Of a stretch of 64,000 nt of DNA, positions 2,973-62,920 are shown piece after piece; the first letter of the stretch is position 1, and every line of letters starts with the position of its first letter. The notes below the pieces were generated by a model. It did not search any database. It was not told where the DNA came from and saw only the letters and a program-made list of their open reading frames with translations. The DNA is taken from positions 17,662 through 81,661 of the forward strand of contig NZ_JAUNRW010000001.1 of the NCBI RefSeq assembly GCF_030535495.1. The letters are read 5' to 3'. Position numbers and translations under genes: made by a program. The stretch comes from Corynebacterium sp. Lineage in GTDB: Bacteria; Actinomycetota; Actinomycetes; Mycobacteriales; Mycobacteriaceae.

Positions 2973-3652
2973 GACACCCCGGCCATCCGCGCGGCCCGGA
3001 TGTGGCGCCACAGGCCCAGCAGCTGCGGGTCGATGCTGTGGTCACCCATCCGGGTCTTGACCGTCTCGATGATCGCGGCGACCCGGTCCGCCCGGGCGAA
3101 CAGCTTGGCCGCGCGCGGTGGCACGGCAGCGGGGAGTCCCGGGGTGTCGTAGAAGTCCGCCAGCGTCCCCACCGTCAGACGCGGGGACTCCAGTGCGTCC
3201 GTCCGGTAGCCGCTGGACGTGATGATCCGCGCCGCCTCGTTCGTCGCCCTGGTCAGCAGCTCATCCGCCTCACCCGGGCTCGACCACGTCGGTGTCGGCA
3301 GCGGTTCCTCCTCCACGAACCACCGCCAGTTCCCCTCCCTGTCGGGCACGAGAACATGGGTCTCGGCCAGGACCAGCGCCCCGCTTATCGACGCCGCCGC
3401 GGCCGCCGCCTGCCCGCCCGCGGGCAGGGCGGGGGCCTCGCCGGGGCCGGAGAGGATGAGGCGGATGGCGGGGGAGGGGGCGTCGAGAAGCGCACAGCGA
3501 CGGATGTCGCCCAAGACCTCGACCAACCCCTCGGACCCCAGGTCATGGAGCGCATCGATGAGATGGTCGGTCGCCTCCAGACCGTGGAGCCAGGCACCGA
3601 GCCAGACGGCGGTGTTCTGCAGGGGTGACCAGACCTCGGCGCGGATATCCAT
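2939..3652 (-). CDS. Conserved hypothetical protein (237 aa)
   Basis: I do not recognise a domain. The 237-residue product has no signal peptide or membrane segment; it is mixed Ala/Leu-rich with an aromatic centre (NWRWFVEEE) and a helical C-terminal half. The ATG is eight bases from a TAGACT -10 box (3661-3666, read on the minus strand). It is divergent from the DUF3097 gene and converges on hemH with a 34-bp overlap. Two copies of the dispersed 11-mer repeat lie within it. Position next to hemH is conserved as I recall in C. glutamicum, but no functional link to haem is demonstrated. Confidence 0.8.
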
Positions 3653-3685
3653 GGCGGGGCAGTCTAGCCGATAAGGTGATCCGCC
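3653..3685. promoter_or_regulatory. Divergent promoter, 33 bp
   Basis: The gap between two divergent start codons holds a minus-strand -10 box TAGACT (3661-3666), eight bases before the minus gene, and a plus-strand TAAGGT (3672-3677), eight bases before the plus ATG. AAGGTGAT could instead serve the plus gene as a weak Shine-Dalgarno. Both transcripts could be leaderless. Confidence 0.5.
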
Positions 3686-4534
3686 ATGAGCTTCAACGAC
3701 CCCTATTCCGGCGATATCCTGTCCGGTCATGCCCGTTCCCGTCCGCGCGAGTATCCCCGGGTGCCGGCGGAGCCGGGCCTGGTCGTCGAGGTCCGCGGCG
3801 AGGACTACGTGGGTGCGGTCGTCGGCTGGGAGCGCACCTACGACGGTGAATTCGTCCGCCTCGAGGACCGGCGCGGAGTCAAGCGGCTTTTCCAGCTCGT
3901 GTCCGGCGGTTTTCTTATCGACGGCCGCCCCGTCACCCTCATCCGCCATCTGCCGAAGAAGGCGGAAGAGGTGCGGCGCTCCAACTCCGGATCCCGTCGG
4001 GTGGACAACGTCGAGGCGAAGGTCGCTGCCCCCTCGCGCATCTGGGTGGAAGGTGTCCACGACGCGGCCATCGTGGAGAAGGTGTGGGGCCATGACCTGC
4101 GCGTCGAAGGCGTGGTCGTCGAATACCTCGAGGGGCTGGACAACCTGGAGTCCCGCCTGGCCGAATTCGGCCCGGGGCGCGGGCGGCGCGTCGGGGTGCT
4201 GGCCGACCACCTCGTCGAGGGCTCGAAGGAGACCCGGATGACGCAGGCGGTCGGGGAGCATGTACTGGTCACCGGTCATCCCTACATCGATGTCTGGGCG
4301 GCGGTGAAACCCGCCTCGGTGGGCATCCGCGCCTGGCCTGAGGTGCCCTACGGGGAGGACTGGAAGTCGGGCGTGTGCCGGCGCCTGGGGTGGTCGGACC
4401 CGCGCGAGGGCTGGAACCGGGTCTACTCGGCGGTCACCAGCTTCCGCGATCTCGACTCCACCCTCATCGGGGCCGTGGAGCGGCTGGTCGATTTCGTCAC
4501 CACGCCTGAGTTGTCCAAGGCCGACCTCTCCTAG
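3686..4534 (+). CDS. DUF3097 family protein
   Basis: A 282-residue cytoplasmic protein that looks like the actinobacterial DUF3097 family. An N-terminal small domain (VVEVRGEDYVGAVVGWERTYDG... LEDRRG) is followed by a TOPRIM-like segment with IWVEGVHDAAIVEKVWGHDLR and GVLADHLVEGSKE, where Glu-Gly and acidic residues resemble a metal site. The biochemical role is unknown. It begins 33 bp from the divergent upstream gene and is followed 20 bp later by the NfeD-like gene, so a short operon with NfeD/SPFH is possible. Family assignment is from recalled sequence features. Confidence 0.8.
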   Translation: MSFNDPYSGDILSGHARSRPREYPRVPAEPGLVVEVRGEDYVGAVVGWERTYDGEFVRLEDRRGVKRLFQLVSGGFLIDGRPVTLIRHLPKKAEEVRRSNSGSRRVDNVEAKVAAPSRIWVEGVHDAAIVEKVWGHDLRVEGVVVEYLEGLDNLESRLAEFGPGRGRRVGVLADHLVEGSKETRMTQAVGEHVLVTGHPYIDVWAAVKPASVGIRAWPEVPYGEDWKSGVCRRLGWSDPREGWNRVYSAVTSFRDLDSTLIGAVERLVDFVTTPELSKADLS

Positions 4535-4554
4535 CCGCTGGTACGTTGGACCCC

Positions 4555-6788: not shown

Positions 6789-7490
6789 CTACGGCACAGG
6801 CTTGACTGGAAGGCGATGGTCCACGGCGAGTCCCGCCAGTCCGATGACCGCCAACATCACGGTCAGCGACAGGACCAGGGGATCGACCTCACCGGTCAGG
6901 GCGTCACCCAGGACCACCGTGACCACCGTCCCCGGCGCGGAGCCGAGCAGGGTGGCGACCGTGAACATCCCCACGGGCACACTCGTCAACGCCGCCGCAT
7001 AGTTCATGATGGAAAACGGCACACCGGCGATCATCCGCAGGCTCATCACCGCCAGCCAGCCGCGCTGCTGCAGGCGGGTGTTGATCCCGGACACCGCCGG
7101 ATGAGTCAGCCGCGGAGCCATCCACTCACCGAGCAGTCCGCGGACAACCGTAAGACTCAGCGCCGCTGCCACCGTCGTGGCGGTGAGAGCCACGGCGATG
7201 CCCACCCACGGGCCGAAGAGCACACCGCTGGAGAGCGTGAGAATCGTGCGGGGGACGGGGAACTGCGTCACCACCACGTATCCGAGCCAGAACAGCGCCA
7301 CAAACCAGGCGCCGGAGGCGTCCGCCCAGGTCCGGAGGGTGGTGATGGCGGGGACGTCGATAAGCAGCGTCACGGCGAGGAAACCTGCCAGTGCCGTCGC
7401 GACGGCCAGGCGGCGGGCCCAGGACCAGGCGCCGACGGCTGCGGCGGCGTCGCGGACGAGCGCCACCACGAACTGCCGGAACCGATTCAC
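6789..7490 (-). CDS. VTT-domain (TVP38/TMEM64, DedA-like) membrane protein
   Basis: A 233-residue integral membrane protein with five or six hydrophobic segments. It contains the VTT-domain signature: FPVPRTILTLSSGVLFGPWVG near residue 85, followed by RMIAGVPFSIMNYAAALTSVP. Family members are linked to phospholipid or polyprenyl-phosphate flipping, but this substrate is unknown. The GTG start lies eight bases from a TAAACT -10 box (7499-7504, minus strand). It is divergent from the cupin gene and ends 10 bp before the next minus-strand gene starts, so the two may be co-transcribed. Confidence 0.85.
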   Translation of the reverse strand: MNRFRQFVVALVRDAAAAVGAWSWARRLAVATALAGFLAVTLLIDVPAITTLRTWADASGAWFVALFWLGYVVVTQFPVPRTILTLSSGVLFGPWVGIAVALTATTVAAALSLTVVRGLLGEWMAPRLTHPAVSGINTRLQQRGWLAVMSLRMIAGVPFSIMNYAAALTSVPVGMFTVATLLGSAPGTVVTVVLGDALTGEVDPLVLSLTVMLAVIGLAGLAVDHRLPVKPVP

Positions 7491-8613: not shown

Positions 8614-8713
8614 TGGGTGTCATTCACTTGTCTGTGTCCACCCTCTCGGCTGGGCACCTGCACTACTGTAGCCGCACATCCCGGAGAGACACAAATCCGC
8701 ATGTCAACGCTAG

Positions 8714-8727
8714 TTACACGCGTGTAA
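8714..8727. promoter_or_regulatory. 14-bp palindrome upstream of ABC exporter
   Basis: TTACACGCGTGTAA is a perfect palindrome 20 bp before the ATG of the exporter operon. A second inverted repeat, AGTGGT...ACCACT (8727-8747), abuts the start codon. The size and symmetry suit a TetR-type operator, but no such regulator gene is adjacent. Confidence 0.45.
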
Positions 8728-8747
8728 GTGGTAGCTTTTTCACCACT

Positions 8748-10337
8748 ATGCAACGCAACTATCAACCCCCACGTCGGATGCCCATGTGGTCGTGGTTCGT
8801 GCCCAGAGCAGTGCCCTCCCGGGACGTGGAGGTGGCGCCGGAACGGTGGCGTTCCCGCGCGTCGGGAGCCTGGCGGATGCTCGGCCTGCACGGCCGGGCG
8901 GTGACGGTGCTGATGGTCTCCATCTCGCTGGGCATGCTGGCCTCGGTGTTCATCTCGGTGGTGGTGGCCAACGGCGGTCTGCGTGCCTTCGAGGCCGGCT
9001 CGCTGCAGATCGCGGGGATCGTGATCCTGGTGTTGGCGGGGACCATGGCGGCGTCGTGGGTGGCGGAGTCGACGGCCGATGCCCTCACAGACCTGACGGC
9101 GGCCCGCACGGTGCATTCCCTGCGCCTGAGCCTGACCCGCCGCCTGCTGCAGTCGGAGCCGACGGACATGACCCCCGGCGAGGTGCTCAACACCATCGAC
9201 GGGGATTCTCACCAGGTGGGCGAGCTCAAGGAGATCCTCAACTTCCCGGTGATGATGGCCGCCTACCTGCTCGGGACCGCCGTGGCGGTCGGGTTCTCCC
9301 ACCCGGTGCTGGGGCTGCTGGTCCTCCTGGCGGGCATCGTGACGACGGCGACGACCTTCGCCACGGCACGGCCGCTGGCGCGGGTGGCGGCGCGGCGTCG
9401 AGAAGCGGAGGGTGCGGCGCTGTCCCTGGCCACCGACCTCGCGCAGGGCTCGCGCGTGGTCAAGGGCCTCGGGGCGGTGGAGGAGTCGACGCAGCGTTTC
9501 GACGTCGCCACCGGCCGGGCCCTGCGGCTCATGCTGGTGGAGGCGCGGATGACGGGGTGGTTGACCCTGGTGCGTCAGCTCGTGCCCACCCTGTGTGTGG
9601 TGGGCATCGTCGTCCTGGCGGCCGTGATGCTGCGGGACGGGACCGTGGCCGCGGCCGATCTGGTGACCGTCTCGCTGCTGGTCCCGCCGGCGATGATGTA
9701 CCTGGGGTTCTCGTTGAGCTTCGGCGTGGACTATTTCTCCCGCGGGCTGGTGTCCACGGGACGGATCCGCGATCTGGTGGCAGGCCTTGCGCCGCGCGCC
9801 ACCGCGGCCACGCCCGGTGCGCGCCCGCCCGCCGGGCTGACGGTGTGGTCGGCCACCGGCGCCGCGGGAGTGGAACGTGTCCGGGCCCGTCTGGCGCAGT
9901 GGGAGGCGTGGCAGGACCCTGACATCATCGTGGCCCCGCATGCGGCCGCGGTGTTCGAGGGAACACTGGCGGACAACATCGACCCACTCGGCACCGCGGA
10001 CCCGGAGAAGGTGCAGGCGGCGTTGTCTGCGGCGGCCTGCGGGGACATCATCACCCGCCTCGGCGGGATGGACGGCGACACGTTGCCGGCCTCTCCGATC
10101 GGTGAGGCCGGGCTCAACCTCTCCGGTGGGCAGCGCCAGCGCGTCGCCCTGGCCCGGTGGCTGGTCCGGGACCCGGAGGTGCTGGTGCTGGATGAGCCCA
10201 CCACCGGACTCGACGCCGTCACCCTGGACACCGTGGCACGTAACGTCGCCCGCCTCCGCCGGGGGCGCGCAACGGTGGTGGTGAGCACCTCCGCTGCCTG
10301 GCGGGCGGTCGCCGATCATGTGGAGGAGCTGTCATGA
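8748..10337 (+). CDS. ABC exporter subunit 1, degenerate ATP-binding half
   Basis: A 529-residue half-transporter: membrane domain with about six helices (residues about 40-310), then a shortened nucleotide-binding domain. The NBD keeps a perfect signature LSGGQ (458-462) and Walker B VLVLDEP (Asp482, Glu483). It has no Walker A P-loop, its Q-loop Gln is replaced ([12 protein letters not shown]), and the H-loop His is missing (VVVSTSAAW). It overlaps the partner gene by four bases (ATGA). With subunit 2 it can form one complete ATP site: the partner's Walker A/B/Q/H plus this signature. Substrate unknown. No clear Shine-Dalgarno precedes ATG 8748; an in-frame ATG at 8778 is the alternative. 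Confidence 0.88.
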
Positions 10338-12088
10338 GCCGCGAAGATGCCCTGGCGCCCGCCAGTGTCAGGGAGACGGGACGGACGCTGCGGGCGCTGC
10401 CCACCAGCCCCGGACCCGCATGGTTGCTGGGGACCACCGCCGTGTTCGTGCTGGCGGTGGCGGCGATGACCGTCTCGGCGACGCTGCTGGGGCGTGCCGT
10501 CGACATCGCGGACGGGCCGTGGGAGCCTTTCGTGTGGCTGCTTTCCGGCGTGGCTGCCGCACTGCTCGTCGAGACCGCCGCCCGCTCCGTCGGCGGCTGG
10601 CTGCTCACCGCGCGCACGCGCATGATGTCGGTGGATCTGCGCCGGCAGGCTCTGGGCTCGGTGCTGCGGGCCCCGGTGCCCGATGTCCTGGAACTGGGAA
10701 CGGGCAACGTCATCACCCGCCTCACCCAGGACATCGACACCGTCGTGCGGATGATGTCGGCCACCGGCATCCGCCTCGCGGTGACCATCCTCATGTTCCC
10801 GGTGACACTCGTCGCACTGGTGCTGGTCCACCCGCTTTTCGCCCTCTCCCTGGTGCTGACGCTGGCCGTGGTCTACCCGCTCCTGCGCCTTGTCCTGCCG
10901 CGGATGCCGCAGGCGGCGAACATCGTGGCCACCGCCGAGGCCCGGCGTAACGCGATTCTGCTCGACACCGTGCGCAGCCTGCCCACCCTCCGGGCCCTGC
11001 GGCTGGGCCCCTGGGCGCTGGAACGCACCCGCCGCGCCTCCTGGGACGCGGTGCAGGCCCGCGCCGACCGCGCTCCGCTGTTCGTCCATCTGCTCGGCTA
11101 CGGCAACATCGCCTACGTCACGCTGCTGGCGAGCACCCTGGGGCTGGCGACGTGGCTGGTCAGCCGCGGAGACATCACGATCGGCGCCGCCACCGCGGCG
11201 ATGGTGCTGGTGGTCCGCCTCGAGGGCCACGTGTTCAACCTCCTTTTCCTGGCCGGGGACATACAGGAGGCCGGCACCTCCCTCGGACGCGCCGTCGCCC
11301 TGGCCCGGCTGGCTCCCACCGACAGCCGCGACATCCCCGACGACCTGGAGGCACCGCCGGAGATCCGCATCGAGCACCTGCGGTTTTCTTATCCGGGTGG
11401 GGCGGACATCCTCCCCGACATCACCGTCACCCTGCCCGCCGGCAGCACCACCGCCCTCGTGGGGGCCTCCGGCGCCGGGAAGTCGACGCTCGCGGGGCTG
11501 CTGGCCGGGCTGCAGCGCCCGGATTCCGGCCGCATCCTCATTAACGGCGTCGACACGGCCGAGGTCGACGACGCCTGGACCACCCGCCAGGTCACCCTGC
11601 TCACCCAGGATGTGCACCTGTTTTCCGGAGCGCTGCGCGACGATCTGCTCATGGCCGCACCGCACGCCGGCGACGAGATGCTCATCGACGCCCTCGCCGC
11701 CACCGGGCTGGCTCCCGGCACCGCGACCTGGGCCCGCCACCTGCCCCGGGGCCTGGACACCCCGGTGGGGGCGGGGACGGACTCCCTGCCGCCGGAGGTC
11801 GCGCAGCAGGTGGCCCTGGCCCGGGTGATCCTGCGGGATCCGCCGGTGCTCATCATGGATGAGGCCACCTCCGAGGCCGGCAGCGACGACGCCCGCACCC
11901 TCGAGCGGGCCGCCACCGCCGCCGCACGGGGGCGCACCAGCCTCATCGTGGCCCATCGCCTCGATCAGGCCATGGTCGCCGACCGCATCCTCGTCATGGA
12001 TGCCGGCCGCATCGTGGAAGAGGGCACCCACGCCGAGCTTCTCGACGCCGCGGGGCGCTACGCCGAGCTCTACTCCCGCTGGTCCTGA
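10334..12088 (+). CDS. ABC exporter subunit 2, catalytic ATP-binding half
   Basis: A 584-residue half-transporter with six predicted membrane helices (about 25-310) and a full-length NBD. Walker A is intact (GASGAGKST, 377-385), the Q-loop Gln is present ([12 protein letters not shown]), Walker B is VLIMDEATS (Asp509, Glu510), and the H-loop is IVAHRLD. Its signature motif is destroyed ([14 protein letters not shown] in place of LSGGQ). It is therefore complementary to subunit 1, which has only a good signature. Overlap of the two genes implies translational coupling and a heterodimer. Export of a drug, lipid or siderophore cannot be distinguished. Confidence 0.92.
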
Positions 12089-12129: not shown

Positions 12130-12669
12130 ATGACTTCCTACGCCAATGATTCCCGTTTCCCCGGCCCCGACCCCTACGCCCCGCTCAAGGATCTGCCCTC
12201 CTTCCCCCTGAGCTCCAATGATCTGGAGGAAGGAGCGAAGCTCGCGGAGGAGCAGTGCGCTCCGGAGAACGTCTCCCCGCACCTGGCCTGGTCCGACCTG
12301 CCGGAAGGCACCAAGTCCCTTGCCGTGACCTGCTTTGATCCGGACGCACCGACCGCCTCCGGGTTCTGGCACTGGGCCGCCTTCAACATTCCCGTGGACA
12401 CCACGGAGCTGCCGACAGGCGCAGGCAGCCAGGAGGATCTCGGCATCGACGGTGTCATCGCCTTGGCTAACGACTCCGGAGGGCGGGAGTACTACGGTGC
12501 GGCCCCGCCGGAGGGCCATGGACCTCACCGCTACCTCTACGCGGTGCACGCGGTGGACGTCGAGAAGCTCGACATCGATCCGGATTCCACGGCGACAGTG
12601 CTCGGCTTCAACCTGTATTTCCACTCTCTCGGCCGGGCCATTCTCTGGGGCTGGTACGAGAGCAAGTAG
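12130..12669 (+). CDS. YbhB/YbcL family PEBP-like protein
   Basis: A 179-residue cytoplasmic phosphatidylethanolamine-binding/Raf-kinase-inhibitor-like protein. Family motifs are visible: SPHLAWSDLPEGTKSLAVTCFDPDAPTASGFWHW in the centre and GHGPHRY(L)Y later, forming the anion-binding pocket. The bacterial role is not established. The ATG lies six bases after TACAAC (12118-12123), within GGTACAAC, an extended -10-like box, so the mRNA is probably leaderless. Confidence 0.9.
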   Translation: MTSYANDSRFPGPDPYAPLKDLPSFPLSSNDLEEGAKLAEEQCAPENVSPHLAWSDLPEGTKSLAVTCFDPDAPTASGFWHWAAFNIPVDTTELPTGAGSQEDLGIDGVIALANDSGGREYYGAAPPEGHGPHRYLYAVHAVDVEKLDIDPDSTATVLGFNLYFHSLGRAILWGWYESK

Positions 12670-14274: not shown

Positions 14275-15297
14275 TTAGGAAAATTCGGGGTCGGTGATGA
14301 TCTGCACACCGTCGCCGGTGGCGGAGGCGATGACGAGGGTGCCGTCGGCAAGCACCACAACGTTGTGGGCGTCGGCGACGGTGTCCACGGCGCCGACCGG
14401 CTCCGGCACACCGGTCGACAGCTCGAAGGCGTGGAGCTGATTGTCGGCGGTGGTCGACACCCAGGCCAACTCCCGCTCGGAGTCCCAGGCCACGGCCCAG
14501 GGACTGCCCGCGACGGGCACGGTCTGGTGCAGACGCACGACGTTGTCGGCGGTGTAGACCGCGAGCTGGCCACCCCGGTTGTCGGAGGCCAGGACCAGAC
14601 CCCTGTCGCCGGCGGCCGCCTGACCGATGCCCAGGCCCACGCGCAGTGTTCCCCCCTGGCGGCCGTCGCGCCAGTGGACGTCCTGGATGGTGGTGTTCTC
14701 GTGGTTGGTGCGCACCACGGCGTCATCGGCACCTGCGACGGGGACGGCGAGCAGCTGGGAGGTCAGGCCCGCGACGGAGATCGAGTTCTCCTCGGCACCG
14801 TCGACGAAGACGACGACGCGGTCATTCTCGCCGGAACCGACGACGAGCTCGCCGGTGGAGGTGAGCACCGCGGAGGCTGCGGGGACGGCGTCGGAGTCGG
14901 ACACCGGGTGGGTGTCGATGTCCCCGGTGGTGGCGTCGATAAGCAGCACCTCATCGCCGCAGGCGAGAACGAAGGTGTCGGCGGCGGCGGTGAGATCACC
15001 GCAGTGCTCGGGGACGGTGACGTCCCGGGTGGCACCGGAACGGAACTCCTCGACCGTGCCGAGGGCGAGAGTGCCACCGGCACGCAGACCGAGGATGTCG
15101 CCGGCGGCCTCCAGGTCGCTGACGTCGAGATCCAGCGCGAGAACCTCACCGGCCGGCGAGGTGGAGGCGTCGGAGGTCTGCGGCTCCGCGTTACCGAGGT
15201 CCGGGACCTCCGGATTCGTCGGGCTCGTCCCGCAGGCCACGAGCAGCAGGGAGGTGGCGGCCACAGCCGCCAGGGCAGTCACATGTCCGGCATTCAC
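14275..15297 (-). CDS. Beta-propeller-like lipoprotein, hypothetical
   Basis: A 340-residue exported protein. Its N terminus is a lipoprotein signal with lipobox LLVAC (cleavage before Cys about residue 22). The mature part is a run of short beta repeats (for example [47 protein letters not shown]), suggesting a seven-bladed propeller. Function unknown. GTG 15297 is eight bases from a TAGGCT -10 box (15306-15311, minus strand) inside the end of the upstream reductase gene; GTG 15282 is a shorter alternative. Confidence 0.85.
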
Positions 15298-20606: not shown

Positions 20607-20630
20607 CGGACCCATTCGGAGCGCGGCGGC

Positions 20631-20654
20631 GTCGATAAGCAAAATCGCTACGAT
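20631..20654 (+). promoter_or_regulatory. aspA promoter region
   Basis: TACGAT (20649-20654) is a plausible -10 box 45 bp before aspA, giving a short leader that ends with AGAGGA before the TTG. A minus-strand copy of the dispersed 11-mer repeat ends at 20640, just upstream of the box. It is the only copy found outside a gene. Confidence 0.45.
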
Positions 20655-50797: not shown

Positions 50798-51181
50798 ATG
50801 ACTCTTCACGCCAACGTCTCTCCCTACCGCCGCTTCCCTGGTACTGCCGCCGAGGCCATGAACACCTACGCCGAGATCCTCGGCGTCGAGGTGGAGATCA
50901 TGCCCACCCCGGACGGGGCCGTCATGCACGCTGAACTGCGGAAAGACGGCCGGGCCTTCCTCCTGGCCTCCGACACCTTCCCCGGTGAGGAGCACGTCGC
51001 CGGCACCGACACTCCCCTGGCGATCACCGGCGATGACGAATCCGAGATCCGCGGCTACTGGGATCGTCTCGCCGACGGCGGGGAGATCCTCCAGCCGCTC
51101 GTCGCCGCGCCGTGGGGCGCGATCTTCGGTCAGCTGCAGGATCGTTTCGGCACCCGCTGGATGTTCAACATCGCCGCTTAA
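50798..51181 (+). CDS. PhnB-like VOC/glyoxalase-fold protein
   Basis: A 127-residue VOC-superfamily protein: ANVSPYRRFPGTAAEAMNTYAEILGVEV at the start and GGEILQPLVAAPWGAIFGQLQDRFGTRWMFNIA at the end, the PhnB pattern. Enzymatic role unknown. The ATG lies seven bases after TAGGAT (50785-50790), predicting a leaderless mRNA. Its TAA stop shares TTAA (51178-51181) with the convergent methyltransferase-like gene. Confidence 0.9.
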   Translation: MTLHANVSPYRRFPGTAAEAMNTYAEILGVEVEIMPTPDGAVMHAELRKDGRAFLLASDTFPGEEHVAGTDTPLAITGDDESEIRGYWDRLADGGEILQPLVAAPWGAIFGQLQDRFGTRWMFNIAA

Positions 51182-52458
51182 CGACGCCCCCGTCGGTTCC
51201 GGTGCGTCATCGTGAACTGGACGGTGTCGAGCATGCCGAGGCGGAACAGGGCCTCACGCAGGGCGAACTGATAGACCCAGAGGCGCCGGAAGGCGATGTC
51301 AAAACCAGCGGCGGCGGCCTCGCGCAGATGCCCTTCAAACAGGGATCGCTGCAGGGACAGGGAGAGTTCGTGGTGGCTGCCGAGGTGGGTCTGCCCGACG
51401 ACCCGCAGCCCGGACTCCCGGTCGGCCAGTTTGTGCACGTCCTGGGCCGTGGGGTGATCCAGGCCCGGCCACACATAGGCCCGCAGCACGTCCAGCGCCT
51501 GCCGGGCCACCGGAGTCATGGCGTCGGTGGCTGTGACGGTCTGAACAGCCGCGTAACCGCCGATGGTCAGCAGGCGGTCGAGCGTGCGGATGTAGCGCAC
51601 CCGGTCCTTCGGCTCGAGGATCTCGAGCTTCTCCACCGACACGATGGCGTCGTAACTGCCCCGCCAGTCCCGGGGACCGGGCACCGGCGAGTCGATGACG
51701 GACACGTGCACGGAGGAATCCACACCGGCGAGCAGCAACTGCTCCCCCACGGCGCGCGCCTGCGCCTCATCGGCCGTGAGCGAATCGACGGTCGCGCGCC
51801 GATGTGCGGCTTCGATCGCCACCGCGCCACCGGAGGTGGCGAACTCCAGCAGGTGGGTGCCGGCGGTGACGCGGGCGGCGTCGAGAAGCATCGTCACCGT
51901 GCGGGTCTGCGCGTCGCCGAGGTCCTCCCGGTCGACCCCCACGGGCTCGGAAAAGGTCTGCAGGTCAATGACATGGGTGTCCGGACCCCGCCCGGGCGTG
52001 TGGCTGGGTACGGCGGTGCGCACGGTCGTCGGCACGCCGGAGGCGAAGACCCCGCCGAAGGCGCTGAGGCCGTCGCCGGAGCCCAGTGCCACGAGTTCGG
52101 CCGGCAGCTCACCGCCGCTGTAGCCCTCGGGCGCATGAGTACGCGCGCGGGGCCGGTATCCGGTCGCGATGAGCGCGGCAAGGACCTCCACGAGACGCTC
52201 CGAACGCCATTCGCCGGCCATGAAACTCTCCGCCAGACCCAGCCAGCCGGATACAGCCAGACGGGGGAACAACGCCTCGTGTTCGACGATGAGATCCGGG
52301 TCCCCGTCCGGGTCGAGACTGAGCCCGGCGTTGGCGCAGGCGCGGGCGAAACCGGCCTCCGCTACGCGTGCACGCAGGTCAACGAGGCGCCCGGCGGGAA
52401 CGCGGGCGACTCCGGGCCAGGTGGTCGCGTCGATCGCCACGAGATGGGGATGTCTCAC
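51178..52458 (-). CDS. Degenerate cyclopropane-fatty-acid synthase-like protein
   Basis: A 426-residue protein with the outline of UfaA/cyclopropane-fatty-acyl-phospholipid synthase: an N-terminal domain, then a SAM-methyltransferase-like domain and the typical C-terminal end (VWPGLDHPTAQDVHKL, YQFALREALFRLGMLDTVQFTMTHR). However, the SAM-binding motif EIGxGWG is replaced by EFATSGG (205-211), and the upstream HYDxSNDLF...TYS substrate motif is not recognisable. It may be catalytically inactive or have changed activity. GTG 52458 is eight bases from TAGGAT (52467-52472, minus strand). It is divergent from ndh. Confidence 0.8.
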   Translation of the reverse strand: MRHPHLVAIDATTWPGVARVPAGRLVDLRARVAEAGFARACANAGLSLDPDGDPDLIVEHEALFPRLAVSGWLGLAESFMAGEWRSERLVEVLAALIATGYRPRARTHAPEGYSGGELPAELVALGSGDGLSAFGGVFASGVPTTVRTAVPSHTPGRGPDTHVIDLQTFSEPVGVDREDLGDAQTRTVTMLLDAARVTAGTHLLEFATSGGAVAIEAAHRRATVDSLTADEAQARAVGEQLLLAGVDSSVHVSVIDSPVPGPRDWRGSYDAIVSVEKLEILEPKDRVRYIRTLDRLLTIGGYAAVQTVTATDAMTPVARQALDVLRAYVWPGLDHPTAQDVHKLADRESGLRVVGQTHLGSHHELSLSLQRSLFEGHLREAAAAGFDIAFRRLWVYQFALREALFRLGMLDTVQFTMTHRNRRGRR

Positions 52459-52630: not shown

Positions 52631-54052
52631 ATGACGAACACTCCTTTCCGTCCTGAGGGCGGCCGCCACCACGTGGTCATCATCGGCTCCGGCTTCGGTG
52701 GCCTGTTTGCGGCTCAGGACCTGAAGAACGCAGACGTCGACATCACCATCATCGACCGCACGAACCACCACCTCTTCCAGCCGCTTCTCTACCAGGTGGC
52801 CACCGGCATCCTGTCCTCCGGTGAGATCGCCCCGTCCACCCGTCAGGTACTCAAGGGCCAGCGCAACGCCAACGTGGTCAAGGGCGAGGTGACCAACGTC
52901 GATCTGGACAAGCAGATCGTCACCACCTCTCTCGGTGCCTACACCCGCGAGTTCCAGTACGACTCGCTCATCGTCGCCGCCGGCGCCTCGCAGTCCTACT
53001 TCGGCAACGATCACTTCGCAGAGTTCGCTCCGGGCATGAAGACCATCGATGACGCCCTGGAGATCCGCGCCCGCGTCGTCGGTGCCTTCGAGCGCGCCGA
53101 GCTGGCCAAGGACCCGGCACAGCGTGAGCGCCTGCTGACCTTCGTCATCGTCGGCGCCGGCCCGACCGGCGTCGAGCTGGCGGGTCAGCTCGCCGAGCTC
53201 GCCCACCGCACCCTGGTCGGCGAGTACTCCAACTTCTCCACCTCGGCCGCCCGGATCCTGCTTCTCGACGGCGCACCCCAGGTCCTCCCGCCCTTCGGCA
53301 AGCGTCTGGGCCGCACCGCCCAGCGCCAGCTGGAGAAGCTCGGCGTCACCGTCAAGCTCAACGCCATGGTCACCAACGTCGACGAGAAGACCGTCACCTA
53401 CAAGTCCACCACGGACGGCGCCGAGACCACCATCGAGGCCTTCACCAAGATCTGGTCCGCCGGTGTGGCCGCCTCCCCGCTGGGCGCCCTCGTCGCCGAG
53501 CAGGCCGGAGTCGAGCTGGACCGCGCCGGTCGCGTCATGGTCAACGACGATCTCACCGTCGGTGAGCACCGCAACGTCTTCGTCGTCGGCGACATGGCCA
53601 ACTACAAGAATCTCCCCGGCGTGGCCCAGGTGGCCATCCAGGGTGGTCAGTACGCCGCCGAGCAGATCGCCGACGAGATCTCCGGTCGCACCGCCGCGGA
53701 CCAGCGCCCGGCCTTCGAGTACTTCGACAAGGGCTCCATGGCCATCGTCTCCCGCTTCAACGCCGTGGTGAAGATGGGCAAGGTCGAGGTCACCGGCTTC
53801 ATCGGCTGGCTGCTGTGGCTGGCGGTCCACGTCCTCTTCCTCGTGGGCTTCCGCAACCGTTTCGTCTCCATGATCAACTGGGGCGTCAACGCGCTCTCGC
53901 GCACCCGTTACAACCTGGCGACCACCCGCCAGCAGCTGCACTCGCGTACCGCGCTGATGAAGCTGCAGGCCATCACCTCCGAGATCGAGGGCGACACCCC
54001 GATCGAGCTGCGTGACACCACCAAGTTCACCGGTAAGAAGCAGCTGCGTTAA
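52631..54052 (+). CDS. ndh: Type II NADH dehydrogenase
   Basis: A 473-residue single-subunit, non-proton-pumping NADH:quinone oxidoreductase, the main NADH oxidase of corynebacteria. Two Rossmann motifs: VVIIGSGFGGLFAAQDL for FAD and FVIVGAGPTGVELAGQLAEL for NADH. GEHRNVFVVGDMANYKNL is the FAD-ribityl block. A hydrophobic C-terminal stretch (FIGWLLWLAVHVLFLVGF) anchors it to the membrane. Followed by a strong terminator and then the PFL operon. Confidence 0.96.
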   Translation: MTNTPFRPEGGRHHVVIIGSGFGGLFAAQDLKNADVDITIIDRTNHHLFQPLLYQVATGILSSGEIAPSTRQVLKGQRNANVVKGEVTNVDLDKQIVTTSLGAYTREFQYDSLIVAAGASQSYFGNDHFAEFAPGMKTIDDALEIRARVVGAFERAELAKDPAQRERLLTFVIVGAGPTGVELAGQLAELAHRTLVGEYSNFSTSAARILLLDGAPQVLPPFGKRLGRTAQRQLEKLGVTVKLNAMVTNVDEKTVTYKSTTDGAETTIEAFTKIWSAGVAASPLGALVAEQAGVELDRAGRVMVNDDLTVGEHRNVFVVGDMANYKNLPGVAQVAIQGGQYAAEQIADEISGRTAADQRPAFEYFDKGSMAIVSRFNAVVKMGKVEVTGFIGWLLWLAVHVLFLVGFRNRFVSMINWGVNALSRTRYNLATTRQQLHSRTALMKLQAITSEIEGDTPIELRDTTKFTGKKQLR

Positions 54053-54132: not shown

Positions 54133-54201
54133 GGTATGCGGTTGACATTATTTCGTATCACCTATTCTTCCCACCCATCGAAGACTCGAGAGGTTGATTT
54201 C

Positions 54202-56289
54202 GTGACCACCGTTATCCCACCTGTAACCCAGGCCTGGGAAGGTTTTGCTGAGGGGGCGTGGACCGACACCATCGATGTCCGCGATTTCATCCAGCACAAC
54301 TTCACGCCCTACACCGGCGACGCCACCTTCCTGGCGGGCCCCAGCGACAAGACCCTGCGTACCTGGCAGCACCTGGAGGACAACTACCTGTCCGTCGAGC
54401 GTGAGCGTCGGGTGTTCGACATCGACACCGACACCCCGGCCGACATCGACGCCTTCGCTCCCGGTTACATCTCCGACGACGATGACATCGTCGTCGGCCT
54501 GCAGACCGAGACCCCGCTCAAGCGCGCCATGATGCCCTACGGCGGCTGGCGCATGGTGGAGACCGCGATCCGCGAGGCCGGCAAGGAGCCGAACCAGCAG
54601 GTCAAGGACATCTTCACCCGCTACCGCAAGACGCACAACGATGCCGTCTTCGACATCTACACCCCGCGCATCCGCGCGGCCCGCTCCTCCCACATCATCA
54701 CCGGTCTGCCCGACGCCTACGGCCGTGGCCGCATCATCGGCGACTACCGCCGGGTGGCCCTCTACGGCGTCGACAAGCTCATCGCCGACAAGGAGGCCGC
54801 CAAGCATGCCGTGCATGACGCCGGGTTCTCCGAGCACTGGGCGCGCTACCGCGAGGAGCACGCCGAGCAGATCAAGGCGCTGAAGAAGCTCAAGACCATG
54901 GCCGCCTCCTACGGCTTTGACATCTCCGGGCCGGCCACCACCGCGCAGGAGGCGGTGCAGTGGACCTACTTCGGCTACCTCGGAGCGGTGAAGTCCCAGG
55001 ACGGTGCCGCCATGTCCATCGGTCGCCTCTCCAGCTTCTTCGACATCTACTTCGAGCGTGATCTCGCCGCCGGTATCATCACCGAGGATGACGCCCAGGA
55101 GATCATCGACGCCCTGGTGATCAAGCTGCGCATCGTGCGCTTCCTGCGCACCATCGACTACGACCAGATCTTCTCCGGCGACCCCTACTGGGCCACCTGG
55201 TCGGATGCCGGCTTCATGGAGGACGGCCGCCCGCAGGTGACCAAGACCTCCTTCCGCCTGCTGCAGACCCTGCGCAACCTGGGCCCGGCCCCGGAGCCGA
55301 ACATCACCATCTTCTGGGATGACGCACTGCCGGAGGGCTACAAGGAGTTCTGCGCCGCCATCTCCATCGAGACCTCCTCCCTGCAGTACGAGTCGGACAA
55401 GCAGATCCGTGACCGCTGGGGCGATGACTCCGCCATCGCCTGCTGCGTGTCCCCGATGCAGGTGGGCAAGCAGATGCAGTTCTTCGGCGCCCGCGTCAAC
55501 GCCGCGAAGTCCCTGCTCTACGCCATCAACGGCGGCCGCGACGAGGTCAGCGGCAAGCAGATCGTCGAGGGCTACGCGCCCATCGACGGTGACGGACCCC
55601 TCGATTTCGACGAGGTGTGGAACAAGTACGAGGACATGCTCGACTGGGTCATCGGCACCTACGTCGAGGCCCTCAACATCATCCACTGGTCCCACGACAA
55701 GTACGCCTACGAGGCCATCGAGATGGCGCTGCACGACTCGGACATCATCCGCACCATGGGCTGCGGCATCGCCGGCCTGTCGATCGTCGCCGACTCCCTG
55801 TCCGCCATCAAGCACGCCGAGGTCTACCCGATCCGCGATGAGTCGGGCCTGGTCGTCGACTACCGCACCGAGGGCGAGTTCCCCTTCTACGGCAACGATG
55901 ATGACCGCGCCGACGACATCGCCGCCACGATCGTCCACACCGTCATGGCGAAGATCAAGGAGATCCCGCTCTACCGCGACGCGATCCCCACCCAGTCCGT
56001 GCTCACCATCACCTCGAACGTCGTCTACGGCAAGGCCACGGGCAACTTCCCCTCCGGCCACCGCGCGGGCACGCCCTTCGCACCGGGTGCCAACCCGGAA
56101 AACGGCGCCGACAACCACGGCATGGTCGCCTCCATGCTTTCGGTGGGCAAGCTGGACTACAACGATGCCCTCGACGGCATCTCCCTGACCAACACCATCA
56201 CCCCTTCCGGGCTCGGCCGCACCAAGGACGAGCAGGTCACCAACCTCGTCGGTATCCTCGACGCCGGATTCATCATGGACGAGAACTAG
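54202..56289 (+). CDS. pflB: Pyruvate formate-lyase core subunit lacking glycyl-radical domain
   Basis: A 695-residue formate C-acetyltransferase converting pyruvate and CoA to acetyl-CoA and formate. Catalytic Cys414-Cys415 (AIACCVSPMQVGKQMQFFG) match E. coli Cys418/419. The protein ends NLVGILDAGFIMDEN, exactly where full-length PFL (about 760 aa) enters the linker to the glycyl-radical domain RVSGYAV. That domain is encoded by the next gene. GTG 54202 has GAGAGG eight bases upstream. The next gene is in the same reading frame, 12 bases after the TAG. By itself this subunit should be inactive; the split enzyme is inferred. Confidence 0.94.
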   Translation: MTTVIPPVTQAWEGFAEGAWTDTIDVRDFIQHNFTPYTGDATFLAGPSDKTLRTWQHLEDNYLSVERERRVFDIDTDTPADIDAFAPGYISDDDDIVVGLQTETPLKRAMMPYGGWRMVETAIREAGKEPNQQVKDIFTRYRKTHNDAVFDIYTPRIRAARSSHIITGLPDAYGRGRIIGDYRRVALYGVDKLIADKEAAKHAVHDAGFSEHWARYREEHAEQIKALKKLKTMAASYGFDISGPATTAQEAVQWTYFGYLGAVKSQDGAAMSIGRLSSFFDIYFERDLAAGIITEDDAQEIIDALVIKLRIVRFLRTIDYDQIFSGDPYWATWSDAGFMEDGRPQVTKTSFRLLQTLRNLGPAPEPNITIFWDDALPEGYKEFCAAISIETSSLQYESDKQIRDRWGDDSAIACCVSPMQVGKQMQFFGARVNAAKSLLYAINGGRDEVSGKQIVEGYAPIDGDGPLDFDEVWNKYEDMLDWVIGTYVEALNIIHWSHDKYAYEAIEMALHDSDIIRTMGCGIAGLSIVADSLSAIKHAEVYPIRDESGLVVDYRTEGEFPFYGNDDDRADDIAATIVHTVMAKIKEIPLYRDAIPTQSVLTITSNVVYGKATGNFPSGHRAGTPFAPGANPENGADNHGMVASMLSVGKLDYNDALDGISLTNTITPSGLGRTKDEQVTNLVGILDAGFIMDEN

Positions 56290-56553: not shown

Positions 56554-57409
56554 GGACGGCGTCACCGGCGTCGTCCACCTCACCCCCGAGGAGGGCGAGC
56601 GACTCCGCGGGGTCGCCGCCGGCCTCGGGGGTACGGCTGAGGATCTCACCCGCCCCGAGCTTCTCGACGCCCGCGTCACCGGCGACGTCGCCCTCGTCCA
56701 CTCCTGGGAGATGGTCACCGCCGTGGACGGTCCCGGCACCCGCATGACCCTGTTCCTCACGGGCTGTCCCCTGCGCTGCCAGTACTGCCACAACCCGGAC
56801 ACGATGGAGATGCGCACCGGCACCCTCGAGCGCGTCGAGGACGTGGTCAAGCGCATCACGCGCTACAAGCGCGTCTTCAAGGCCACTGGCGGCGGCCTGA
56901 CGATCTCCGGTGGGGAGCCGCTCTTCCAGCTCGCGTTCACCCGCCGGGTGCTGGCCGAGGTGCATGGCGCCGGCATCCACACCGCGATCGACACCTCCGG
57001 TTTCCTCGGTGCCCGCCTCAGTGACGAGGATCTGGAGAACATCGACCTGGTGCTTCTCGACGTCAAGTCCGGCAACGAGGCCACCTACCGCGAGGTCACC
57101 GGTCAACCGCTGCAGCCCACGCTCGACTTCGGGGCGCGCCTGGCGTCGCTGAACAAGCCGGTGTGGGTGCGTTTCGTCCTGGTTCCGGGGCTCACGGATG
57201 ACCCGGAGAACGTCGCCCAGGTCGCCGACATCGTCGCCGGCTGGCCCAACGTACAGCGCGTGGAGGTGCTCCCCTTCCACAACATGGGCGCGGACAAGTG
57301 GCAGGACCTGGGTATCCGCTACAACCTGGAGAACACCAAGCCACCGACCGCGGCCTCCCTGCAGGCCACCCGGCGGGCCTTCCGCGACCGCGGCATCGAC
57401 ACCTACTGA
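56546..57409 (+). CDS. pflA: Pyruvate formate-lyase activating enzyme
   Basis: A 287-residue radical-SAM activase that abstracts a hydrogen from the PFL glycine. The cluster motif is Cys74-x3-Cys78-x2-Cys81 ([14 protein letters not shown]), with ISGGEPLFQ (SAM site) and LLDVKSGNE later. [14 protein letters not shown] is the usual PflA start; about 45 extra N-terminal residues precede it. GTG 56546 overlaps the glycyl-radical gene by eight bases, so the three genes form one translationally linked operon. The TPP riboswitch begins about 20 bp after its stop. Confidence 0.94.
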
Positions 57410-57429
57410 GTTCTGCTACTCTCTCTCAC

Positions 57430-57507
57430 AACGACATGGGGTGCGCGGAGTACGCGCTGAGATCACACCCACCGAACCTGCTCTAGTTCGCACTAGCGAA
57501 GGGATTG
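57430..57507 (+). ncRNA. TPP riboswitch (THI element)
   Basis: Conserved blocks are in order: GGGGTGC, CGCTGAGA (pyrimidine-sensing helix), ACACCC, GAACCTG (pyrophosphate helix) and GCGAAGGG at the 3' end. AAGGG is also the Shine-Dalgarno of thiM, whose TTG lies seven bases further, so ligand binding should block translation initiation. It controls thiM-thiD/tenA. Confidence 0.9.
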
Positions 57508-57509
57508 TC

Positions 57510-58301
57510 TTGAGTTTTCTGCACCTGCGTGATCAGATGCGCGACACTGCACCCCTTGTCCAGTGCCTGACGAATTCCGTGGCCATGCCCCTGAGCGCCA
57601 ATGTGCTGCTCGCGGCAGGCGCGTCCCCCGCGATGATCGACACCCCGGAGGAGTCCGCGGACTTCGCGGCCGTCGCCTCGGGTGTCCTGATCAATGTGGG
57701 AACGCCCAGCGCCGAGCGCTACGCCGGCATGGAAGCGGCCGTCCGCGGTGCCACCATTGCTGGCACCCCGTGGGTCCTCGACCCGGTCGGGGCCGGCGCG
57801 CTGCCGCACCGCACACGCTTCGTCGAGAAGCTTCTCGACGCCTCCCCCACCGCCCTGCGCGGCAACGCCTCCGAGATCTCCGCGCTGGGCGGCGGCGGAA
57901 AGGGCGGCCGCGGCGTGGACTCCGCCGACACCGTCGAGCAGGCCCTGCCTGCCGCGCAGGTACTCGCCCAGCGAACCGGCGGTGTGGTGGCGGTGTCCGG
58001 GCCTGAGGACCTCATCGTCTCCTCGCAGCGCGTCACCCGGCTGAACTCCGGCGATCCGCTACTCACGCTGGTCAGCGGCTCCGGGTGCTCCCTCGGGGCG
58101 TTGTGCGCGGCCTACCTGGGGCTGGACGGCGATGCCCATGACGCGGTCCTGGCCGCGCATGCCCATGCCGGAGCCGCCGCCCAGATCGCGGCGCGCACCG
58201 CCGCCGGACCGGGCAGCTTCGCCACCGCCTGGCTCGATGCCCTGCATCATGTCACCTCCGCAGAGATCGCGGAGCTCGTCTCCTGGAAGGACCACTCATG
58301 A
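57510..58301 (+). CDS. thiM: Hydroxyethylthiazole kinase
   Basis: A 263-residue kinase salvaging the thiazole moiety of thiamine. Motifs: [28 protein letters not shown] at the start, [26 protein letters not shown], and the anion-hole/ATP region [12 protein letters not shown] start seven bases after the riboswitch-embedded AAGGG. The 3' end overlaps thiD by four bases (ATGA). A palindromic pair of the dispersed 11-mer lies at 57822-57839. Confidence 0.95.
57822..57839. repeat. Dispersed 11-mer GCTTMTCGACG, palindromic pair
   Basis: GTCGAGAAGCTTCTCGAC is two opposed copies of the repeat within thiM. Other copies (first base of 10-mer GCTTMTCGAC). Plus: 3383, 12037, 17553, 19060, 22896, 26249, 33878, 40215, 41851, 43706, 44114, 44790, 53260, 56659, 57052, 57830. 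Minus: 3482, 7366, 9397, 12559, 14935, 20631, 26727, 29549, 37518, 42904, 51880, 57822, 60258, 62279. All 30 are followed by G, and mostly by GNC. Near-misses: 3913, 31755, 32961, 38586, 41170. Confidence 0.85.
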
Positions 58302-59809: not shown

Positions 59810-60378
59810 AAGATCGCCACGAGGAAGTCCGAGTCCTCCTCGAAGGGCCGCAGGTCCCAGGTGGAGAAGACGTTCTCGGGCTCCAATCCGGCCGCGGTGG
59901 CCGTGGCCATGAAGTCGTCGAAACCCCAACCCCGTCCGGCGCCGAAGCCGGCGACGAAGCGTCCCCCCGGTACCAGGGCGGCGGCGATGGCCTCCAGGGC
60001 CTGCTGCCGCCCGCCCGGGTCGAGGAAGCCCATGACGTTGCCTGCGGAGACCACCAGGTCGAAGCCGCCGGGCAGCGGGTCCGCACACAGGTCGGCGACC
60101 TCGAACGCGGCCTCCGGATACATCTCGCGGGCGTGCCCGACGAGCACCGGGTCGATGTCCACGCCGACCACGTCATGACCCCGCTGCGCGAGGTAGCCGG
60201 CGATGCGCCCCTGCCCGCAGCCGGCGTCGAGGATGCGGGCGGCGCGGGGGACGAGGGCGTCGATAAGCCGGGCCTCGCCGTCGATGTCATCGCCGCGGTC
60301 GATCATCTCCTGCCAGCGGCGGGCATAGTTCTCCGAATGCTGCGGATTCTCCGAGGTCATATCTTTCCAGGTGGGCAT
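59788..60378 (-). CDS. Class I SAM-dependent methyltransferase
   Basis: A 196-residue methyltransferase. Motif I ILDAGCGQGRIAGYLAQRG, the acidic loop VVGVDIDPVLVGHARE, motif IV FDLVVSAGNVMGFLDP, and PGGRFVAGFGAGRGW are all clear. Substrate unknown. ATG 60378 lies six bases from a perfect TATACT -10 box (60385-60390, minus strand), predicting a leaderless mRNA. Its 3' end overlaps thiD/tenA by 22 bp. Confidence 0.9.
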   Translation of the reverse strand: MPTWKDMTSENPQHSENYARRWQEMIDRGDDIDGEARLIDALVPRAARILDAGCGQGRIAGYLAQRGHDVVGVDIDPVLVGHAREMYPEAAFEVADLCADPLPGGFDLVVSAGNVMGFLDPGGRQQALEAIAAALVPGGRFVAGFGAGRGWGFDDFMATATAAGLEPENVFSTWDLRPFEEDSDFLVAIFYQARSA

Positions 60379-61457: not shown

Positions 61458-61467
61458 CCTGGGCGGC

Positions 61468-61827
61468 ATGAGAAGGACACTGATCACGGTCGCCACCGCC
61501 GCCCTGGCCCTCGGCCTGGCACCGGCCGCCCACGCCCAGTCCAGCATCGACCACCGCCAGGAGGGAACGGTGTGGGCACCGCGCCTGACCGAGGTGACCC
61601 GCCACGAGGTGCTGCCCGGCAACCAGGTCCGCGTGCACTACGTCACGGGTGATCCGGCCTGCTACGGCGCCCATGCCGTGGCCGTGGAGACCCCCTGGGC
61701 AGTCCACGTGCGGGTGGTCACCGGTCCCCGCGTCGGCGGAGCGGATGTGTGCACCATGATCGCCCTGGAGGAGTCCCAGGTGCTGCAGCTGAGTGCCCCG
61801 CTGGGAGGACGCAGCCTCCATGTCTGA
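61468..61827 (+). CDS. Small secreted protein, hypothetical
   Basis: A 119-residue exported protein. Signal peptide MRRTLITVATAALALGLAPAAHA is cleaved after AHA. The mature 95 residues have two cysteines (PACYGAH and ADVCTM) that could form a disulfide, and read as an all-beta fold. No family recognised. The ATG lies seven bases after TAGCCT (61455-61460). It overlaps the next gene by eight bases. Confidence 0.82.
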   Translation: MRRTLITVATAALALGLAPAAHAQSSIDHRQEGTVWAPRLTEVTRHEVLPGNQVRVHYVTGDPACYGAHAVAVETPWAVHVRVVTGPRVGGADVCTMIALEESQVLQLSAPLGGRSLHV

Positions 61828-62920
61828 CATCCTGCTGTTCGGAGCCACCGGTTTCGTCGGCCGCCTCACCGCTGCCTATCTGGCCGACCACGACAACGTC
61901 ATCCTGGCCGGCCGCGACGCCGCCGCACTGGAAGCGCTGCGCGACGAGATCAACCCGGCGTGGGAGATCGCCACCGGTGACGCGCACTCCGGCTCCGACA
62001 TGGCGGCCCTCGCCGCCCGGGCCGGGGTGGTCATCAGTTGCGTGGGACCCTATTCCCGTCTCGGCTGGGAGATGGTCAACGCCTGCGCGGAAGCAGGCAC
62101 CGACTACGTCGACCTGTGCGGCGAAGTGCCCTTCATCCGCCGCGTCATCGACACCCACCACGGGACCACCACCGCCCGTATCGTCCACTCCTGCGGCTTC
62201 GATTCCGTGCCCTCGGACATGGGCGCCTTCGCCCTGCGTCAGCACGCGGGGGAACCGCTGGAGGAGGTGACCATGGTCGTCGAGAAGCTCAAGGGCGGGC
62301 TGTCCACCGGCACCCTCGACTCCATGCGCGAGGTCTCCGCGCAGGCGCGCGCCGACCGCACCGTGGCCCGCAACCTGCACAACCCCTACAGCCTCTCCCC
62401 TGTCCCCTCCGAGGAGCCGCGCCTGGACAATGCGCGGGACTTCCGGATCACCCGGCTGAAGGATTCCCGCTGGGCCGGGCCCTTCTTCATGTCCATGTTC
62501 AACACCCGCATCGTGCGCCGCTCCAATTCGCTGCGCGGGGAGCGCTTCGTCTACCACGAGCGCTGGGCCACCGGCCGCGGGATCCTCGGCCGCCTCAAGG
62601 CCTACGCTCTGGCCGGCATCACCGCCACGCTGTTCGCCGCGTCCCAGAAACCAGCCCTCCAGCGCCTGGTACCGCAGCCGGGCGACGGCTATTTCCGCTT
62701 CACCCACCAGGGTGTCACCGCCACCGGCCGGGAGGTCTCCTGCACCGTCGCCGCCGACGGGGACCCGGGATACGAGGTCACCGCGATGATGCTGGCCGAG
62801 GCAGCCCTCACCCTCCTGGAACGGCCCGGAGCCGGAGGAGTTCTCACCCCGTCCACCGCCCTCGGGGCGCCCTACCTCGAGCGGCTGCAGGCCAACGGGA
62901 TGCGCTTCACCTGTTCATGA
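61820..62920 (+). CDS. Saccharopine-dehydrogenase-like trans-acting enoyl reductase
   Basis: A 366-residue Rossmann oxidoreductase of the group that includes mycobacterial trans-acting enoyl reductases. NAD(P) motif ILLFGATGFVGRLTAAYL, then VVISCVGPYSRLGWEMVNACAEAGTDYVDLCGEVPF and the conserved HSCGFDSVPSDMGAF. In mycobacteria such proteins act on polyketide lipids; no PKS gene is in the window. GGGAGGA precedes the ATG, which lies in the end of the secreted-protein gene. The 3' end overlaps the convergent thioesterase by 14 bp. Confidence 0.88.
   Translation: MSDILLFGATGFVGRLTAAYLADHDNVILAGRDAAALEALRDEINPAWEIATGDAHSGSDMAALAARAGVVISCVGPYSRLGWEMVNACAEAGTDYVDLCGEVPFIRRVIDTHHGTTTARIVHSCGFDSVPSDMGAFALRQHAGEPLEEVTMVVEKLKGGLSTGTLDSMREVSAQARADRTVARNLHNPYSLSPVPSEEPRLDNARDFRITRLKDSRWAGPFFMSMFNTRIVRRSNSLRGERFVYHERWATGRGILGRLKAYALAGITATLFAASQKPALQRLVPQPGDGYFRFTHQGVTATGREVSCTVAADGDPGYEVTAMMLAEAALTLLERPGAGGVLTPSTALGAPYLERLQANGMRFTCS

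Follow-up and report, generated by a model that had tools for sequence, protein, structure and literature searches.

Across the 64,000-nucleotide stretch of Corynebacterium sp. DNA analysed here (hereafter, the window), a short bipartite word recurs in which the blocks GCTT and CGACG flank a free two-base spacer (GCTTNNCGACG). This word probably serves Corynebacterium as a mark of self in DNA uptake. In our analysis it behaves like the DNA uptake sequences (DUS) of the Neisseriaceae and the uptake signal sequences (USS) of the Pasteurellaceae, being chromosome-wide, scarce on presumed plasmids, without replication polarity, switched in place between dialects and, in close relatives, retained beyond local sequence identity. 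With a little less assurance, we favour the broader reading that Corynebacterium would have evolved sequence-specific uptake independently, by way of Tad pili across the mycolate envelope, with GCTT-NN-CGA(C/T)G dialects drifting together with a putative receptor.

Form, abundance and distribution of the word

A preliminary description of the window had reported 30 copies of GCTTMTCGACG, 16 on the plus and 14 on the minus strand, against a chance count of about 0.1. All 30 copies were recovered in place, and 100 dinucleotide shuffles of the window yielded a mean of 0.08 copies and a maximum of 1. Markov models predicted 0.27 (order 3), 0.44 (order 4) and 1.62 (order 5) copies. The fifth-order expectation, which the description had named as a figure that would undo its claim if the genome-wide count came close to it, lies far below the observed count, and the same holds for 400 kb of genome G016, where GCTTNNCGACG occurs 272 times against 16.1 copies expected at order 5 and 11.9 expected in the comparison of spacers and core variants. 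The draft genome from which the window derives (2,455,957 bases in 193 contigs, 90.7% complete) harbors 977 copies of GCTTMTCGACG, 496 forward and 481 reverse, whereas the same word written backwards occurs 5 + 1 = 6 times. A C two bases past the final G, also noted previously, is present in 26 of the 30 window copies.

The enrichment of GCTTMTCGACG was thereby upheld, but its form was drawn too narrowly, both spacer bases being variable. The window contains 38 copies of GCTTNNCGACG against 1.03 expected (order 3), eight of them beyond the M-form, and the source draft genome 1486 against 65 for the control. Some relatives that are poor in the M-form carry other spacers and are united by GCTTNNCGACG; CT or AT is preferred in the genome of the window, and no spacer is strongly preferred in G016. 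In both G016 and G000, spacers of 0, 1, 3 or 4 bases do not exceed chance. Single-base changes inside CGACG reach at most 1.7-fold of expectation in G016, and four in the GCTT block show an enrichment of roughly twofold or above (T4 to C, 44 vs 24.7; T4 to A, 12 vs 4.8; G1 to C, 22 vs 10.6; C2 to G, 22 vs 11.8). The commonest single-base change in that genome (loci L149-L168) is the core variant GCGTNNCGACG, with T3 replaced by G (98 vs 21.3), and in the same loci a five-base spacer is also above chance (38 vs 12.5).

The distribution of the word was surveyed in 242 Corynebacterium genomes, one per species, by comparing GCTTNNCGAYG with a reversed-word control. The word reached at least four times the control in 184 of these genomes (median 1129.5 copies), with strand totals of 104144 forward and 104328 reverse; 58 genomes fell below this threshold, 37 of them below 1.5 times the control. 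In an order-wide sample of 249 genomes searched with GCTTNNCGACG, the three Corynebacterium genomes were all enriched, and none of the 246 others came near enrichment or was comparable, the top ratio, judged by eye, being about 1.7 (G401, 418 vs 246). This absence elsewhere, together with conservation in relatives, had been proposed as a check, and the latter was borne out in close relatives of the window: of 30 window sites aligned in L009, L010 and L031, 20 retain the core, compared with 35 of 120 for permuted control words, while the spacer changes.

Phylogenetic inference on ComEC from 35 genomes placed five word-poor genomes in a single clade (support 100/100), whereas G014, where a search of 80 kb revealed no word, sits among word-rich genomes with moderate support. 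Lack of the word therefore appears on separate branches of this tree, suggesting that it was probably lost, or never gained, at least twice within Corynebacterium. In a tree of the depupylase/deamidase Dop, ten rows (the jeikeium, urealyticum, falsenii, suicordis and dentalis group) likewise form a clade (100/99), and no core copy was found in the 8.9-21.5 kb of sequence available for each of them.

Dialects and related words

De novo motif search identified a second form, GCTTNNCGATG, in G006 and G053, two genomes that had at first appeared word-poor. Genome-wide, GCTTNNCGATG occurs 1021 times in G006, 680 in G053 and 1080 in G103, as against 32-87 in the remaining 12 of the 15 genomes searched; the CGACG form amounts to 97, 28 and, by difference, 92 copies, respectively. 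GCTTNNCGATG takes the place of GCTTNNCGACG in at least three genomes. The ComEC tree pairs G004 (CGACG) with G006 (CGATG) as sister species (100/100) and places G053 elsewhere, so that the change of dialect probably arose at least twice. Alignment of G004 and G006 over about 14 kb (79% identity) revealed that 6 of 10 G004 sites read CGATG in place in G006, the other four showing neither form; in the converse direction, 6 of 9 G006 sites read CGACG in G004.

Further words were assessed against codon shuffles, in which synonymous codons are exchanged among genes and the proteins remain unchanged. In G013 (C. parakroppenstedtii), ATTGNCGACG is enriched (15 vs 2.0, shuffle maximum 7) and is a possible dialect form. 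A search for alternative words in word-poor genomes (60-80 kb each) returned nothing strong in G014, G054 and G030, and words of uninterpreted kind in G010, G033, G039 and G015. In G039 (76% G+C; L225, L239-L241), called genes contain 54 copies of the palindromic CTCGNCGAGG, where codon shuffles give about 20 (maximum 35); it may or may not be a further dialect. In G010 (L220, L232-L234), a genome otherwise without the word, called genes contain 13 copies of TCGACGCCA, where codon shuffles give 2.0 (maximum 6); this is perhaps a relic of the word. Words of the GGAGCNNNTGGA type number 21-22 against about 1 expected in G033 (L224, L237, L238), where they could derive from a repeat protein, and GTTATCCACA, which we take to be DnaA-box-like, occurs 11 times in G015 (L235, L222), nine of them within one 20-kb stretch.

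Placement of the word and rival explanations

Orientation was examined in 23 word-rich genomes among 37 (1.3 Mb; four further word-rich genomes were left out), using genes called by a simple script, which makes the split between sense, antisense and intergenic sites approximate and misses some genes, such as that at 57198-58301 of the window. The 785 sites comprise 469 sense, 223 antisense, 89 intergenic and 4 partial copies, with about 13% of the sequence called non-coding, and show no significant trend in position along genes. The symmetry ascribed to the word by the preliminary description applies to the DNA strands but not to genes: the 26 M-form copies in called genes of the window are 18 sense and 8 antisense.

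Along the G016 chromosome, spacing is Poisson-like (sd/mean 1.00), and copies are roughly half as frequent in 4-kb bins of low G+C as in the remaining bins. The suggested examination of strand and replichore revealed no significant replication-strand bias in this one genome (leading/lagging 150/122, p = 0.10, with base 1 taken as the origin), although called genes run 229 vs 102 kb, and the strong per-replichore skew of FtsK-orienting polar sequences (KOPS) was not seen there, so that this candidate is not supported. Ten small contigs from five word-rich genomes (370,638 bases), taken to be extra-chromosomal since a single contig of chromosome size is present in each of these genomes, contain 9 copies, against 144.3 at the density of the host genomes; the reversed word occurs 6 times. 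Scanning one protein per contig on eight of them identified five TrwC relaxases and one phage tape-measure protein; no plasmid marker was seen in the proteins from G044:C3 and G012:C1, and the scan covered all ten contigs but G044:C4 and C5. Phages BFK20 and phi673 carry 1 and 0 copies, to which we attach little weight.

A by-product of codon usage or of a Leu-x-Asp protein motif would be in keeping with the reading CTT-NNC-GAC of 160 of the 170 sense copies in G016, and with the frequency of LxD, which exceeds the prediction from composition (832 vs 635). Protein-preserving codon shuffles refute such an artefact: G016 has 170 sense and 64 antisense copies where the shuffles yield 8.3 and 11.4, and the window has 22 and 10 where they yield 0.56 and 4.59, although the antisense excess is modest in the latter (shuffle maximum 8). 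The middle amino acid differs among relatives, antisense copies are common, and CTT is, as previously remarked, a rare leucine codon (80 of 1876 in genes called within the window). The earlier judgement that protein-level selection does not explain the word is therefore sustained, codon-biased Leu-Leu-Asp strings leave the excess unaccounted for on either strand of the genes, and we give this explanation practically no credence. It is very unlikely, too, that a DNA methyltransferase or a restriction system targets the word, or that the word is a by-product of mutation, with methyl-C deamination turning CGACG into CGATG. The C-to-T change between dialects does lie in a CpG, but one would not expect modification by itself to make its targets more numerous, and the word is enriched across 184 species; moreover, 3 of the 9 G006 sites carry CGATG where G004 is without CGACG, indicating that G006 sites are not only decayed ones.

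Two proposals involving intracellular DNA-binding proteins fare somewhat better and are still improbable. A Chi-like hotspot, at which the word would instruct an AdnAB-type helicase-nuclease at broken ends, would fit its dispersal on the chromosome, and a pair of neighbouring long frames with a RecB-type nuclease domain, presumably AdnAB, was found in all 24 genomes searched, in a few of them with interrupted or short frames. Such proteins, however, are also encoded by word-poor genomes, and dialect switches would require matching changes in an intracellular enzyme. Chi is usually strand-biased with replication, unlike the word in G016, and we know of no Chi word as long as nine specified bases in two blocks. 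The Chi reading is unlikely, and a poorer fit to orientation and word length. A chromosome-organising or nucleoid-protein binding site, which we rate as marginally less plausible still, would be consistent with an even, unbiased chromosomal spread and with scarcity on presumed extra-chromosomal contigs. Against it stand the lack of intergenic preference (89 of 785 sites), the small difference between the origin and terminus halves of G016 (148 vs 124 sites in 10 stretches each) and the near-chance frequency of changes in CGACG, such strictness being unusual for an abundant nucleoid protein. The analogy with uptake sequences, preferred in the preliminary description over Chi and KOPS, is supported by the genome-wide excess, the lack of replication-strand bias in one genome, the dialects and their switching in place, the scarcity on presumed extra-chromosomal contigs and the presence of competence genes.

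The copies in the window are given below with their positions and the genes called around them.

3383..3393, plus strand: GCTTATCGACG, sense, called gene 2900-3628
3481..3491, minus strand: GCTTCTCGACG, antisense, called gene 2900-3628
7355..7365, minus strand: GCTTATCGACG, sense, called gene 6789-7490
9396..9406, minus strand: GCTTCTCGACG, antisense, called gene 8628-10337
12037..12047, plus strand: GCTTCTCGACG, sense, ABC transporter gene 10334-12088
12558..12568, minus strand: GCTTCTCGACG, antisense, called gene 12130-12669
14934..14944, minus strand: GCTTATCGACG, antisense, called gene 14365-15306
17553..17563, plus strand: GCTTCTCGACG, sense, called gene 17128-18360
19060..19070, plus strand: GCTTCTCGACG, sense, called gene 18698-19459
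20630..20640, minus strand: GCTTATCGACG, no script-called gene at site
22896..22906, plus strand: GCTTCTCGACG, sense, C4-dicarboxylate transporter gene 22312-23622; L009 and L010 retain the core, L031 does not
26249..26259, plus strand: GCTTATCGACG, sense, called gene 26169-27431
26726..26736, minus strand: GCTTATCGACG, antisense, called gene 26169-27431; L009, L010 and L031 retain the core
29548..29558, minus strand: GCTTCTCGACG, antisense, called gene 28358-29863; 6 of 8 compared relatives retain the core
33878..33888, plus strand: GCTTATCGACG, sense, called gene 33051-34004
37517..37527, minus strand: GCTTCTCGACG, antisense, helicase gene 36252-39209; L009, L010 and L031 retain the core
40215..40225, plus strand: GCTTATCGACG, sense, called gene 39835-40953
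41851..41861, plus strand: GCTTCTCGACG, sense, called gene 41735-42448
42903..42913, minus strand: GCTTATCGACG, sense, called gene 42445-43065
43706..43716, plus strand: GCTTCTCGACG, sense, called gene 43032-44402
44114..44124, plus strand: GCTTCTCGACG, sense, called gene 43032-44402
44790..44800, plus strand: GCTTCTCGACG, no script-called gene at site
51879..51889, minus strand: GCTTCTCGACG, sense, called gene 51178-52605
53260..53270, plus strand: GCTTCTCGACG, sense, called gene 52631-54052
56659..56669, plus strand: GCTTCTCGACG, sense, called gene 56546-57409
57052..57062, plus strand: GCTTCTCGACG, sense, called gene 56546-57409
57821..57831, minus strand: GCTTCTCGACG, left palindrome half, hydroxyethylthiazole kinase frame 57198-58301, missed by the script
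57830..57840, plus strand: GCTTCTCGACG, right palindrome half, hydroxyethylthiazole kinase frame 57198-58301
60258..60268, minus strand: GCTTATCGACG, sense, called gene 59788-60378
62278..62288, minus strand: GCTTCTCGACG, antisense, called gene 61793-62920
1064..1074, minus strand: GCTTCACGACG, further core copy
14343..14353, minus strand: GCTTGCCGACG, further core copy
16895..16905, plus strand: GCTTCCCGACG, further core copy
30792..30802, plus strand: GCTTCGCGACG, further core copy, dop gene 29869-31431
30912..30922, plus strand: GCTTGCCGACG, further core copy, dop gene 29869-31431
41170..41180, plus strand: GCTTTTCGACG, further core copy
51176..51186, plus strand: GCTTAACGACG, further core copy
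54768..54778, minus strand: GCTTGTCGACG, further core copy, antisense, pyruvate formate-lyase gene 54109-56289

The copies at 57821-57840 overlap to form a perfect 20-base palindrome, CGTCGAGAAGCTTCTCGACG, within the hydroxyethylthiazole kinase frame. The product of 29869-31431 (520 aa) is assigned to Dop by NCBIfam (727 bits, vs 339 for PafA) and labelled Pup-ligase by Pfam; it is 93% identical to the Dop of C. pollutisoli, with which it groups in a 39-row tree, placing the source of the window in Corynebacterium.

A putative uptake system and its known counterparts

Under the uptake reading, a surface receptor, plausibly located on the Tad (Flp) pilus or on ComEA, would contact double-stranded DNA at two points, GCTT and CGA[C/T]G, held at a fixed two-base distance. 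Word-bearing DNA would be drawn to ComEA and ComEC and enter single-stranded, and the incoming strand, protected by DprA, would then recombine with the chromosome, spreading and repairing the word through the core genome. Preferential uptake of word-bearing DNA would in this manner lead to about one copy per 2 kb, on both strands and both sense and antisense to genes, while elements spreading by other routes would remain without the word. Were the preference of the receptor to drift, the whole genomic set would follow, generating dialects. We infer the receptor, the uptake bias and all transport steps.

Homology searches identified ComEC in all 61 genomes searched, ComEA in 61 of 61 (58 above cut-off), a Tad-type ATPase (actinobacterial TIGR03819) in 59 of 61 (57 above cut-off) and DprA in 11 of 11 (10 above cut-off). 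At 20 ATPase loci, 14 of them from word-rich or unclear and 6 from word-poor genomes, script-called genes include TadB/C-like frames in 20, TadE-like frames in 19 and Flp-like frames in 14, labels that we presume from position and the usual operon order. The competence genes that the preliminary description proposed to look for (ComEA, ComEC and Tad-type genes) are hence present, but do not discriminate: ComEC, ComEA and the Tad-type ATPase are common to word-rich and word-poor genomes, and their presence was rejected as a predictor of the word. Gene content at 20 Tad and 36 com loci likewise showed no difference tracking the word (the gene caller failed on G039, with 76% G+C), and the charge of Tad pseudopilin-like proteins showed no clear trend.

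Several observations weigh against a role in uptake. The machinery is encoded by word-poor genomes too and, though consistent with uptake, fails to account for the set of species that carry the word. No Tad-type ATPase was found in the 90.7% complete draft genome of the window, although its near relatives G018 and G019 have one. Two word-rich genomes show irregular competence genes, the ComEC match of G001 being split in two frames (G001:C4:524862-525658) and the ComEA match of G043 spanning a stop (G043:C1:1129426-1129593), where the script calls a 218-aa cluster gene. A search for a receptor among the Tad pseudopilin-like proteins and in the com operon identified none and established no dialect-linked change. 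Retention of window sites is weak in five more distant relatives (10 of 43, vs 15 of 190 controls). Haemophilus USS pairs often form terminators (PMC5217627; this and the other papers cited are represented by extracts), whereas no close inverted pairing of the word was seen in G016 (12 neighbour distances under 100 bases vs 18 expected). Finally, the matches listed include no study of natural transformation in a Corynebacterium. In the wider set of matches listed, no title or abstract opening names such a word in Corynebacterium, and the extract of a scan of 569 genomes mentions the genus for CRISPR only (PMC5217627).

If the uptake reading is true, uptake sequences would exist outside the two Gram-negative families, Neisseriaceae and Pasteurellaceae, in which the extracts describe them, and this type of bacterial sexual isolation would have evolved more than once. 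Corynebacteria, which include skin and nasal commensals as well as industrial producers, would presumably take up DNA in nature, and the word would provide a practical tag for transformation. Sister species with switched dialects, such as G004 and G006, would then constitute a natural experiment for finding the receptor.

Compared with known systems, the word shares with Chi the dispersal of a short word on chromosomal DNA, and differs from it in lacking strand bias in G016 and in being longer and bipartite. It is of neither the neisserial GCCGTCTGAA type nor the AAGTGCGGT type of the Pasteurellaceae USS (PMC3630211). Like the latter, which is tied to competence, it has a short core that is scattered over the genome and numbers many hundreds of copies. 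Transformation in the actinobacterium Micrococcus luteus involves a Flp/Tad pilus with ComEA and ComEC (PMC6370729), a set known in Corynebacterium from the genes alone; sequence specificity goes unmentioned in the extract of that study. The DUS of the Neisseriaceae, read by ComP, number from about one to several thousand copies and form dialects around a conserved core (PMC3630211), and their distribution in mobile elements is atypical (PMC7371117). The word differs from them in its two blocks around a free spacer and in its setting, Actinobacteria with Tad-type genes as opposed to type IV pili with ComP, and it is known here from sequence. Nevertheless, high copy number and dialects are common to both, and the favoured orientation in reading frames described for known uptake sequences (PMC2346458) is also found in Corynebacterium, where sense copies outnumber antisense copies by 469 to 223.

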